A DNA stretch of 34,321 bases from a virus, in the IMG/VR virus record IMGVR_UViG_3300021247_000872, positions 1-34,321 of that record; one strand, given 5' to 3'. A program made the translations under genes and the position numbers. Shown here in pieces: positions 3,107-20,660 of the stretch (its first letter is position 1; every line of letters starts with the position of its first letter). The notes beneath the pieces were generated by a model. That model searched no databases. It worked only from the letters and a program-made list of their open reading frames with translations, and was not told where the DNA came from.

Positions 3107-4411
3107 TTATGTGGTTCTTTTAAGAACGATGATTGATCCAGCAGCAGATGAAGTACCAACATCATGAGCAGAGAAGCCAATTCTTTCGACGGCCTTAAAT
3201 GCAATTTCATCAGTGTTGAATAGATAATCAGTAGAAACTGAAATCTGAACACTTCTGCGATCTCCAAGAACTGTACCAGTCTTGAGGTTTGCAAGCGCAC
3301 AAAGATGTGTATTAACAGTACCAGCAGCTGTTGATGCAAGATGTTGAGAGAACTCAATTGGATAACCATAAAGAGTTGGTCTACCATTTTGGAAGTTCAT
3401 TAAGTCAAGAGCAGCATTACCTGAAAGTGCGTCAAGTCTGTTACAAACAACATCATTAAAGAAAGCCTTGGACATATACCACTTTGCATCAGCATTATCA
3501 GCATATAAAGGCAATTTACCAACCATTGTACGGAAGTTAGCAAGAGTTGTAGCATTGTAGTTAGCAACAGTACCTGTAGCAGCAGCAACTGTACCAGCAT
3601 TAGAAGCAACAGCCAAGTTTGCAGTAATAAAGCCATCAATGTTACCGTCAGTAGCATTCGCTGCAGCACCTAACATCATAACTCTATCTTCTTCTTGAGC
3701 AAACTTCCATGCCATATCTTGAGCTAATGCAGTACCAATTTCAATGATAGAATCTTCATTAACTTCAGAAGTTACAGCAGTAAGAATACCAAGTTTCTTT
3801 GCAAGAACCTGTACACGATCAAAAGTAGGCTGCGATTGAGTAATAGCAGTTGATTCACCTACCCAGTAAGCAGTTGTAGATGCACTATTTTTTGGAATCC
3901 AAAGTGTATCAGAGTTCATAGTTCTGATAGTAGCATTGCGTCTTACAACACCGTATTGCTCACGGAGGAAGATAAGTTCAGCAACGAGTTCATCTGGTAC
4001 TAAAAATCCACCAGCACTGTTTGTACCTTCGTTGACTGCCTTATAGGAAGTATTTTCCTTCAACCAATTGATAGCTTTTTGATTGCCACGAGTTGAAAGA
4101 GCAAACATACCAAAAGCATAACCTAACTTTGCTTTTTCATAACCACTTTCAGGAGAGAATGGCAATGACTTATAACTCATTGCTGCTCCTGGAAGAATAA
4201 TATCAGATGTATTTTCCACAGACTTTACCTCATTACTAATAGGAAGGATTTGCTCATCAGCAGCCTTCAAAACATTAATTTTTTTTACAATTTCTTCATT
4301 TTCAGAAAGAAGTTTTTGTGCATCTTCGACAACACCATCTTCTGAAGACAAGATATCTTTTGCCTTAAGAGCATTTTCTCTCTTTTTGGCTTCAAGAGCT
4401 TCAATATTCAT
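3107..4411 (-). CDS. Major capsid protein, HK97 fold
   Basis: A 434-residue protein with the HK97-family layout. A charged helical N-terminal domain (about residues 1-65, the scaffold-like delta region normally removed by the protease) is followed by a linker. The shell domain begins near GTNSAGGFLVPDELVAELI and includes the typical RRNATIRTMNSDTLWIP strand, the AYWVGESTAI loop and the late GYPIEFSQHL and RSVQISVSTDYLF strands. Start choice: an in-frame ATG four codons upstream is part of the GGAG site, so ATG at 4411, which has correct spacing, is preferred. The gene begins one base after the protease stop and is followed by a strong terminator. Confidence 0.92.
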   Translation of the reverse strand: MNIEALEAKKRENALKAKDILSSEDGVVEDAQKLLSENEEIVKKINVLKAADEQILPISNEVKSVENTSDIILPGAAMSYKSLPFSPESGYEKAKLGYAFGMFALSTRGNQKAINWLKENTSYKAVNEGTNSAGGFLVPDELVAELIFLREQYGVVRRNATIRTMNSDTLWIPKNSASTTAYWVGESTAITQSQPTFDRVQVLAKKLGILTAVTSEVNEDSIIEIGTALAQDMAWKFAQEEDRVMMLGAAANATDGNIDGFITANLAVASNAGTVAAATGTVANYNATTLANFRTMVGKLPLYADNADAKWYMSKAFFNDVVCNRLDALSGNAALDLMNFQNGRPTLYGYPIEFSQHLASTAAGTVNTHLCALANLKTGTVLGDRRSVQISVSTDYLFNTDEIAFKAVERIGFSAHDVGTSSAAGSIIVLKRTT

Positions 4412-8886: not shown

Positions 8887-9193
8887 ATAAATTACCTAAA
8901 TCTCCTGCCTTCTGATTTAATGTGTAACCTGGATCTAATGCTTGTTTAGATATCTGACGTAAAGCTCTTGTATTCTCTGTAATCAAATCAGCTAATAAAT
9001 CATCTAAACGCTTATTCTCCGTCCAATCATCAGCCATCTTAATACTCTGCTGCATACGCTCCTGAATAGTCTGAATAGTAGAAACAGGCAATTCATAAGT
9101 TTTTGCAATCTTACTCTCCGACATTCCAATCATTAAAGCATTCTGAACTTCCGCATAAATCTCTGGATGCCTAATTAATTCATTGTAATCCAT
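8822..9193 (-). CDS. terS: Terminase small subunit
   Basis: A 123-residue, mostly helical protein immediately upstream of and overlapping the large subunit gene. The N-terminal part contains a helix-turn-helix (about residues 22-50, MSESKIAKTYELPVSTIQTI) for recognising the packaging site. The central and C-terminal helices (NKRLDDLLADLITENTRALR and YEKIGQFTIRLLEAAAEAKN) fit oligomerisation. Identification is by position, size and HTH. It overlaps the sigma-factor gene by 14 bases, so the three genes are co-translated. Confidence 0.8.
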   Translation of the reverse strand: MDYNELIRHPEIYAEVQNALMIGMSESKIAKTYELPVSTIQTIQERMQQSIKMADDWTENKRLDDLLADLITENTRALRQISKQALDPGYTLNQKAGDLGNLYEKIGQFTIRLLEAAAEAKNK

Positions 9194-9977
9194 CTCTAAA
9201 CCACTCCTTTAACGCAGCATTTGTCTTCAGTTTTTCCATAGCAGAAGAAAAATAATCCTGATACTGATTACCATTTATGTTGAACTTCTTACAAAACTCA
9301 ACCATATTAATTATCTCTACACCTAAACCATAAGTGTAAATAACAACAAGCCTTTCCATCTCATTTAATTTTTCTAAACTATCATAAATCAACTTAATAC
9401 CTTCATCCTCAACTAAACTGTCAAATAACGGATCATCGCTGTCATTTGTTCTAACACTGTAAAAATCATACTCCTCATCATTGCCACTATTATCTAAACT
9501 TAAAACACTTATCTCCGCAGCATTTATAGAGTTCAATACACAATTTAAACTTTTACCTGTTAACTCCACAACCTCTAAAATACTCAAATCCTGCAAATTA
9601 TTCAACTGTTTTATAGTTTCCTTAATATGAACAGGCAAACGTATTAAAGCAGCATTATTCTCTATATTTCGCTTTATTTTTTGAGAGATCCAATAATAAC
9701 AATAAGTGGAAAAGCGATTACCTTTACTAACATCAAACTTTTTAGCAGCAATTACTAAACCAATCATTCCAGAAGAAAACAAATCAGCATACTCTACACC
9801 TAAACCACTATGCTTATGACAAATCTTATGTATCAAATTAACATTACATTTTAATAACTCCTCCAATACTAATAACTCATCATCATCAATAACAGAAAAT
9901 AAAAATTGTTCCTCTTCAACGCTTAAAGAAACTAACTCTCTGCCTGTCCTTATCTTTTTGTAAATCTTCCAATTCAT
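9180..9977 (-). CDS. Phage-encoded sigma70-family sigma factor
   Basis: A 265-residue protein. Region 2 spans about residues 41-110 (core-binding ADLFSSGMIGLVIAAKKFD; -10-reading RFSTYCYYWISQKIKRNI at 88-105). Region 3.0 is RLPVHIKE (113-120). A region-3-like helical part follows, then an acidic linker (161-192) and region 4.1 (LEKLNEMERLVVIYTYGL). Compared with housekeeping sigma, the aromatic pair WW becomes YW, Q is kept and the following T becomes K. Region 4.2 (VEFCKKFNINGNQYQDYFSS) lacks the usual arginines of the -35 recognition helix. It would redirect host RNA polymerase to phage promoters. It lies between an HTH regulator and the terminase genes. Confidence 0.85.
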   Translation of the reverse strand: MNWKIYKKIRTGRELVSLSVEEEQFLFSVIDDDELLVLEELLKCNVNLIHKICHKHSGLGVEYADLFSSGMIGLVIAAKKFDVSKGNRFSTYCYYWISQKIKRNIENNAALIRLPVHIKETIKQLNNLQDLSILEVVELTGKSLNCVLNSINAAEISVLSLDNSGNDEEYDFYSVRTNDSDDPLFDSLVEDEGIKLIYDSLEKLNEMERLVVIYTYGLGVEIINMVEFCKKFNINGNQYQDYFSSAMEKLKTNAALKEWFRDGLQ

Positions 9978-17022: not shown

Positions 17023-17148
17023 ATGATACTTCCAGAAGTTGTTAGGTTAGGTTTTATAGATTCTGTTATTATTGGTATTTATGTACTTTGTGTATGGAAT
17101 TGTATAGAATATTTTGTCAATTGGCTTAAGAAGAAGCGAAATAAATAA
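17023..17148 (+). CDS. Tiny membrane protein (41 aa)
   Basis: A hidden short gene with a good TTGAGG ribosome site eight bases before ATG. The protein starts MILPEVVRLG, has one hydrophobic segment at about residues 10-31, then a basic tail ending KKKRNK, giving an expected C-terminus-inside topology. Isolated in a control region, it resembles small phage membrane effectors (superinfection exclusion or host inhibition), but the function is unknown. Confidence 0.6.
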   Translation: MILPEVVRLGFIDSVIIGIYVLCVWNCIEYFVNWLKKKRNK

Positions 17149-17241
17149 GTGTGTCCAAAAGTAGTGTTTCCTTAATATATTACATATAGATACACTTTAA
17201 AAAGAAAAGAAAAAGAAGCAAAAAGAAAAGAAAGTATTGAA

Positions 17242-17259
17242 GCATTTGCAAGCAAATGC
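17242..17259. repeat. Palindrome GCATTTGC-AA-GCAAATGC
   Basis: An eight-base perfect stem with two unpaired bases; the first of the hairpin series. Confidence 0.75.
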
Positions 17260-17310
17260 GCTTATTCTACTCTTAATTGTTATTCTTTATTTATTTGTTA
17301 TTGTAGAGTA

Positions 17311-18970: not shown

Positions 18971-19339
18971 ATGGAATATATTAGAGATTTACAACAAAAA
19001 ATTAAAGATTTAGAAGAAGAATTACAACAACAAAAAGCAGACTATACAATGGATAAAGCTCGTGTTGTTTATGCTTATCATATTCTTAATGCTGGTAGAG
19101 ATGAGCATGTTTTAATGCATATGGATGATAAAGCAAGAGAAGTTGTATTTTGGAAGATGAAGTATGATCAGGTTGTTTCAGAAGTTGAGCATTATAAAAA
19201 GAGTAATAAAGCTTGGCAAGAAAAGTATGAGAAATTATTTGAAAAGAATCAGATTACTTTAAATGCTATTGAAGAACTTGAAAAACATATTGACCAATGT
19301 TTAGATTGTAGACGTGGTATTAAGAGATGTTGTAAATGA
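18971..19339 (+). CDS. Coiled-coil protein with C-terminal cysteine cluster
   Basis: A 122-residue, highly charged, helical protein. Residues 1-30 (RDLQQKIKDLEEELQQQKAD) and 55-110 show heptad-like coiled coil. The C-terminus CLDCRRGIKRCCK has five cysteines, so metal binding or disulphide linking is possible. It is coupled to a following tiny membrane protein by an ATGA overlap. No family was recognised; a scaffold or membrane-associated complex is one reading. Confidence 0.65.
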   Translation: MEYIRDLQQKIKDLEEELQQQKADYTMDKARVVYAYHILNAGRDEHVLMHMDDKAREVVFWKMKYDQVVSEVEHYKKSNKAWQEKYEKLFEKNQITLNAIEELEKHIDQCLDCRRGIKRCCK

Positions 19340-19463: not shown

Positions 19464-19469
19464 TATAAT
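19464..19469 (+). promoter_or_regulatory. TATAAT -10 box of candidate ncRNA
   Basis: A perfect TATAAT preceded by a T-rich stretch. There is no TTGACA at the right distance; AAGGAATA lies 17 bases upstream of it. The predicted transcript starts near 19476. Confidence 0.55.
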
Positions 19470-19476
19470 ATATATG

Positions 19477-19625
19477 TAAGGTCAGACAGCAGACAGAAAG
19501 TTGATTTTAGTCTCTTTGAAAAAACGTGGATTAGTCAACATTAAAATGAGCAATACGAGACTTTAAGAAGAAATAAAGCCACTTATCGTAACACATTTCT
19601 GTGCGAAAATAGGTGGCTTTATTGT
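19477..19625 (+). ncRNA. Candidate phage non-coding RNA, about 150 nt
   Basis: A non-coding interval with its own TATAAT and terminator. Pairings visible: GTTGATT (19500-19506) with AGTCAAC (19533-19539), and AGTCTC (19509-19514), which lies inside that loop, with GAGACT (19557-19562) outside it. Together these make an H-type pseudoknot. The 5' end carries repeated CAGACAG-like sequence (TCAGACAGCAGACAG). No known RNA family was recognised. An RNA that regulates host or phage mRNAs, or a packaging or defence-related RNA, are open options. Confidence 0.55.
19572..19623 (+). terminator. Long structured terminator of candidate ncRNA
   Basis: AATAAAGCCAC pairs with GTGGCTTTATT and extends inward by TTAT/ATAG. 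The loop holds a second small hairpin, CACA-TTTC-TGTG. It is followed by GTTGTATAAG, so the T-run is short. It is convincing as an RNA 3' structure. Confidence 0.75.
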
Positions 19626-19683
19626 TGTATAAGATAAATATAAAATAAAAGATCCCAGGTTTATTTTTAAATGAGAGCTATAG

Positions 19684-19721
19684 CCAACTTGTAAATAATA
19701 CTTACATGTTGGCTATTCTTT
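19684..19721. terminator. Bidirectional terminator between ncRNA and lysis genes
   Basis: ATAGCCAAC pairs with GTTGGCTAT, with an inner GTAA/TTAC. On the plus strand it is followed by TCTTTTATCTTTT. It lies at the end of the minus-strand lysis genes and so separates convergent units. Confidence 0.8.
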
Positions 19722-20138: not shown

Positions 20139-20660
20139 CTAATATGTCATCATAAAACCACCTTGAGAACCTAATGAGTTCCATGAGCGATTTTTTTTAT
20201 AAACACCATCTCCATTAGCTTCTACACCTTTACCTGGAGAAGTATTTCCTTCTACACTAATAAAACCATCTTTATTACTACTTATTACAATTCCACAATG
20301 ATAAATCCTGCCTTTATCTTCAGAATAAAAGAAGCAAGCATAACCTTTTTTAATTAAAGATGGATTTTTCTTTGCTGTAGCTATTGGTATCCAAATGTTA
20401 TTAGTCTGTGCGTAATTTTTCCAATCAGGAGTATAACCAGATAATTTTTTAAAACTTTCTGATAATTCTTCATTTAAATCTTTAGCAGCATCTAAATAAC
20501 GAAACTTGAGAAAAGCTGCACACCAAGCATAACCTTCATCGAGTCCTACTGTTTGAAGATATTTTTTTATTGCTTGTCCGTGGTTGTCTTTTTCTGTTTC
20601 TCCTACGCCAACATTTAATAAAGCCTCGTCTGCTGCTCTGATTGCAATTTCTTTTTTCAT
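20139..20660 (-). CDS. CHAP-type endolysin (cysteine peptidoglycan hydrolase)
   Basis: A 173-residue single-domain enzyme. The catalytic cysteine is in YAWCAAF (C47), the histidine in IYHCGIVI (H121), and the third member in VEGNTS (E137/N139), followed by the typical GDGVYKKNRSW end. These are the marks of CHAP / NlpC-P60-like amidases or endopeptidases that cut peptide bonds of the cell wall. There is no cell-wall-binding domain and no signal peptide, so release needs a holin. The ribosome site is weak. It is separated from the tail operon by a hairpin. Confidence 0.85.
   Translation of the reverse strand: MKKEIAIRAADEALLNVGVGETEKDNHGQAIKKYLQTVGLDEGYAWCAAFLKFRYLDAAKDLNEELSESFKKLSGYTPDWKNYAQTNNIWIPIATAKKNPSLIKKGYACFFYSEDKGRIYHCGIVISSNKDGFISVEGNTSPGKGVEANGDGVYKKNRSWNSLGSQGGFMMTY

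Follow-up and report, generated by a model that had tools for sequence, protein, structure and literature searches.

The stretch at positions 19,464 to 19,625 of the window (the whole IMG/VR virus record of 34,321 bases, which represents an HK97-type phage) looks like a new, previously uncatalogued small noncoding RNA gene that carries a start signal and is conserved in related phages, as judged from sequence comparison. We propose, with moderate confidence, that this is a lineage-restricted, free-standing phage RNA gene whose product would act in trans, most likely through protein binding at an unpaired core. Five other IMG/VR contigs (L002, L004, L005, L006 and L088) carry the same element at the same place, beside the endolysin operon, for a total of six copies that represent four distinct RNA types.

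The interval and its relatives

The window contains Pfam matches to capsid, prohead protease, portal and terminase proteins. The RNA interval is flanked by a short plus-strand cluster on one side and by the convergent lysis genes on the other. It contains an exact TATAAT and a 15-bp terminator-like hairpin, separated by a core of roughly 90 nt. The initial annotation described it as a candidate structured RNA with a promoter, a possible pseudoknot and a terminator but no reading frame. All the letters quoted there (TATAAT, GTTGATT/AGTCAAC, AGTCTC/GAGACT and the 15-bp stem) are present exactly, and the list of open reading frames indeed includes none of at least 40 amino acids inside the interval on either strand. 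The features discussed below are:

9180–9977, sigma-70 region 2 protein
18971–19339, plus strand, coiled-coil-like gene, the last of the short plus-strand cluster, upstream of the RNA site
19464–19469, plus strand, −10 hexamer TATAAT, no −35 box
19476, plus strand, predicted transcription start, G, RNA base 1
19477–19483, plus strand, 5' arm of the closing stem P1, TAAGGTC, pairing with 19559–19565
19484–19496, plus strand, conserved unpaired block 1, AGACAGCAGACAG
19500–19539, plus strand, variable hairpin P2, here with arms GTTGATT (19500–19506) and AGTCAAC (19533–19539)
19540–19556, plus strand, conserved unpaired block 2, ATTAAAATGAGCAATAC
19559–19565, plus strand, 3' arm of P1, GACTTTA, pairing with 19477–19483
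19572–19623, plus strand, terminator-like hairpin from folding, 15-bp stem with an inner hairpin and a 3' side of the TTTATTGTT type
19680–19716, plus strand, second hairpin with a T-rich tail, read from the sequence, before the convergent lysis genes
20139–20660, CHAP-like endolysin, one of the lysis genes convergent with the RNA site

Over 150 nt, the predicted fold scores better than those of shuffled sequences (z = −3.08). Given that the 92-nt core without the terminator does no better than shuffles in the window (z = 0.01, with 467 of 1000 shuffles equally good; −0.5 to −2.3 in the other members), this stability signal appears to be supplied by the terminator hairpin. Taken by itself, the window sequence would make a weak case for a structured RNA; the argument depends on the relatives.

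An endolysin search matched six contigs, four of which reach the site, and all four carry the element (L002, L004, L005 and L006). A tail-protein search yielded two further contigs, L082 and L087, and its match L088 is the contig of L072. This contig was also added by a pattern scan of viral contigs; its tail protein has 35% identity across the aligned region, and the order of the coiled-coil-like gene, the RNA and the convergent endolysin is retained. In total, 10 records were checked over their whole length with the block 2 pattern and a covariance model, and 6 carry the element. The contigs L001, L003/L086 and L082 stop before the site and contain no element in their remaining DNA. In L087 (IMGVR_UViG_3300007559_000825), the site is cleanly empty, with the whole cassette missing (at about 3,580–3,760 on the locus); the gap is bordered by the small upstream gene and by the terminator on the lysis side. 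Compared with the carriers, L087 represents gain or loss as one unit. Its empty site suggests that the RNA is dispensable in that phage, no more than that, and provides a natural knock-out for comparison.

The coiled-coil-like gene just upstream of the RNA site is found in the window, L002, L005, L006 and L088, and is retained in L087 despite the missing RNA; most of the encoded proteins end in a Lys/Cys tail (RCCK, KCCKK). Elsewhere, a stretch of about 155 bases that is single in the window (17141–17304) matches two adjacent stretches in L002 (14741–15049), as if by tandem duplication.

The covariance model R1 was built from the window, L002, L004 and L006, with L088 and L005 left out. The covariance search, a check proposed in the initial annotation, recovers the left-out L088, the most distant member, with 68.4 bits (E = 3e-13), in agreement with conservation of the element in related phages; among 55 sources (690 kb), the best non-member is L042, with 26 bits, which had been collected because of its block 2 16-mer. 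Protein and pattern scans of viral contigs reveal no members beyond the six. Four pattern scans returned 48, 25, 32 and 91 stretches, of which the non-members were judged to be chance matches from their flanks (in one scan, letters were inspected only for new stretches with a 7-bp helix or TATAAT). An exact-pattern scan of genome contigs returned 27 stretches, none with the flanks of the element. Searches with R1 of 5 + 299 + 299 + 296 prokaryote genomes gave no match, which is weak evidence given that few candidates were scored per genome. Microcystis phage Mae-JY24 encodes a distantly similar tail protein and endolysin; R1 likewise finds no element in it. A blastn search of annotated phages and plasmids produced no convincing match (the best, with E = 0.001, is to the terminator part of L002). 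The statement of the initial annotation that no recognised RNA family is represented here holds for Rfam 15: the window falls below every gathering score among 4227 families, and E-value scans of the window, L002, L004 and L088 give a best E of 0.033, with all hits below gathering. The element is not named in the literature searched, and the 14-mer AAAATGAGCAATAC was not found in the papers searched.

Conserved sequence and structure

Over the region that runs from the −10 box through P1, the sequences are 82–92% identical at aligned positions in 12 between-lineage comparisons (each with 4–35 gap columns, mostly in P2, that are excluded from the identity). Four-fold degenerate sites of the endolysin genes agree at 13/30 to 30/45 positions (43–67%) in the same comparisons. 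Within the group of L004, L005 and L006, the RNA is 96–99% identical. The two unpaired blocks are almost invariant and P2 is not: block 1 is kept in L002 and nearly so in L088 (AGACAGCAAACAG), with its 3' half CAGACAG retained in L004, L005 and L006, and block 2 is identical in the window, L002, L004, L005 and L006, with one change in L088.

The conserved structure consists of the stem P1, which joins both ends around the two unpaired blocks and the variable P2. In P1, which is kept in all six members, the first 6–9 bases are paired with the end of the core (UAAGGUC/GACUUUA in the window, UAAGGUCA/UGACCUUA in L002, GUAAGAUCA/UGAUCUUAC in L088 and GUAAGU/ACUUAC in L004–L006). Over the five distinct rows, 94.7% of the cells are paired in register vs at most 45.7% when slid; the alignment used for this count contains N placeholders and thereby leans in favour of P1, and it was chosen because MAFFT misaligned the 3' arms, and RNAalifold run on the MAFFT alignment reports no pairs. 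When the last 16 bases were shuffled in 20,000 trials, an equal helix appeared in 189 trials for the window, 41 for L002, 8 for L088 and 1120 for L004. The sixth pair occurs as G-C, A-U and U-A. The covariation score is reached by 16 of 500 shuffles; two-sided changes are confined to one pair, a count that 359 of 500 shuffles reach.

The hairpin P2 has the GTTGATT/AGTCAAC form in the window, gives way to another hairpin, CTGGTATTTCTACCGG, in both L002 and L088, and is reduced to about 3 pairs in L004–L006. The RNAs of L002 and L088 are 92% identical (79/86) and have P2 in common, with endolysins that match at only 73/170 amino acids (43%); the window and L002 have close endolysins (148/173) yet differ in P2. 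These observations are consistent with phages having exchanged either the cassette or P2.

The initial annotation proposed a possible pseudoknot in which GTTGATT/AGTCAAC is interleaved with a pairing of AGTCTC (19509–19514) and GAGACT (19557–19562), and named compensatory changes in both stems as what would support it. In the relatives, it is P1, a different stem, that is kept, with a two-sided change at one pair. The pseudoknot is rejected: by inspection, its AGTCTC/GAGACT helix is absent from all five other members, and it competes with P1, whose 3' arm shares bases with GAGACT. The complementarity of these two 6-mers is therefore most likely due to chance.

Candidate start and termination signals

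The −10 hexamer is exact in all six members and precedes the first base of P1 by 5–7 nt in each. In the AT-rich window, TATAAT occurs 69 times (over 2 x 34 kb) vs 61.8 expected from shuffles, which is the chance level; what exceeds chance is the position of the hexamer relative to the RNA start, not its presence. The start predicted from the spacing to this hexamer would coincide in all six. There is no −35 hexamer, and a two-hexamer consensus scan of the window gives no promoter at the interval. The claim of a promoter belonging to the RNA stands with respect to the exact and consistently placed TATAAT, albeit in a form that lacks a −35 box and is missed by the scan. Proteins with sigma-70 region 2 are encoded in the window (9180–9977) and in L006 (11728–12498), and such a phage protein might read −10-only promoters like that of the RNA.

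The long terminator with an internal hairpin was described correctly in its parts: the 15-bp stem (19572–19586/19609–19623) encloses a small CACA/TGTG hairpin. It is not listed by the terminator scan, whose rule requires a loop of 3–8. The hairpin behind the RNA is good in the window and in L002 (shorter in the latter, at the same place) and is a weak A-T structure in L004–L006; L088 has none of its own, only the lysis-side hairpin. The second hairpin at 19680–19716, with analogs in L002, L004, L005, L006 and L088, is a possible back-up terminator. A second conserved leader (CCCAGGTTTATTTT..AATGAGAGCTATA) precedes this T-tailed hairpin at 19657–19716 and is common to L002, where the hairpin letters differ.

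Proposed mode of action and comparison with known phage RNAs

Under the preferred reading, the RNA would begin at 19476, which is the first base of P1, and would be terminated by the 19572–19623 hairpin or by the one at 19680–19716, for a length of roughly 150–250 nt. Both ends of this RNA would pair as P1, so that the 5' end is hidden, and the two almost invariant unpaired blocks would be displayed around the freely variable P2. The RNA could then bind a host or phage protein in trans, as a decoy, a sponge or a scaffold of a ribonucleoprotein. Action in trans through a protein is suggested by the anatomy, because the core is fixed and unpaired, the hairpin is disposable and there is no downstream gene to control. 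This anatomy, a closing stem with two unpaired blocks that do not vary, is testable and would offer a compact bait for a partner search.

The main rival is a base-pairing small RNA in which block 2 (ATTAAAATGAGCAATAC) or block 1 serves as a seed for host mRNAs, perhaps with Hfq; we consider this possible, if on balance unlikely. A most-conserved unpaired segment followed by a terminator has the general appearance of a seed region, and VpdS of phage VP882 employs Hfq on phage and host mRNAs, as described in a review (PMC12197685). However, a 17-nt block, a second block and a closing stem exceed the needs of a seed, and RNAduplex scans of phage DNA (60-nt windows, with three shuffled queries for each strand run at half the density) detect no target clearly above the shuffled queries in the whole window and 17–21 kb of four relatives. 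These scans, over the window and parts of the relatives, likewise count against antisense action on the phage's own messages.

A further reading, which we regard as doubtful, is that of a noncoding 'moron', i.e., a self-contained cassette of promoter, protein-binding core and terminator that would be gained, lost and exchanged, and whose product would use mimicry to disarm a defence protein of the host or an antitoxin-type protein. Its clean absence from L087, together with an RNA common to L002 and L088 despite their 43% identical endolysins and a different P2 in the window, fits such exchange.

It is rather improbable that the element functions as DNA, i.e., as an operator, origin or recombination site in which the inverted repeat of the P1 arms and the blocks are bound in double-stranded form. 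An inverted repeat would likewise vary symmetrically, and AT-rich DNA between convergent clusters fits an origin (GC skew is uninformative in this respect), but the −10 box, which precedes the stem by an almost constant distance in all six members, and the terminator-like hairpins that follow speak against this reading; the cleanly empty site in L087 implies that no essential origin or packaging site is located there. Very unlikely is a mere 3' end, a terminator region of convergent operons kept by recent common descent: the position between convergent genes and the terminal hairpins would suit it, but the terminators vary freely between members and the RNA is far more conserved than the adjoining four-fold sites, a comparison by which this reading is already disfavoured. 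Finally, a gene for a short peptide (MSNT...) with the conserved ATG as its start codon is extremely improbable and was rejected: ATG AGC AAT AC is kept in all six members, but the frames run for 4, 6, 20 or 21 codons and their tails are unrelated, a ribosome-binding site is not consistently present before the ATG, and synonymous positions are as invariant as the rest.

To our knowledge, free-standing phage noncoding RNAs are rarely annotated, and most of those described come from phages of model hosts. Several known systems resemble the present element in part. VpdS of VP882, 24B_1 and others are phage-encoded trans-acting small RNAs (PMC12197685). The likeness is that of a short phage-encoded noncoding RNA; as far as the review describes them, these RNAs work in known hosts through base pairing and/or Hfq, whereas here a stem closes the ends around an invariant unpaired core, and no sequence relation to RNAs of this type emerged in the searches run. 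RNA anti-CRISPRs (Racr), which mimic CRISPR repeats (PMC10651486), are similar as small phage RNAs that form solitary units. The closest in anatomy is the abiF antitoxin RNA (RF03085; RCd22 of C. difficile phage phi027, PMC12373285), which is phage-encoded, structured and about 100–130 nt long, with its own promoter and terminator. A toxin gene would be expected beside an RNA of the abiF or type III kind; no toxin family was detected among the neighbouring genes scanned, and RF03085 is not matched at the gathering score. The abiF RNA binds a protein, the mode of action that we consider most likely for the RNA described here.
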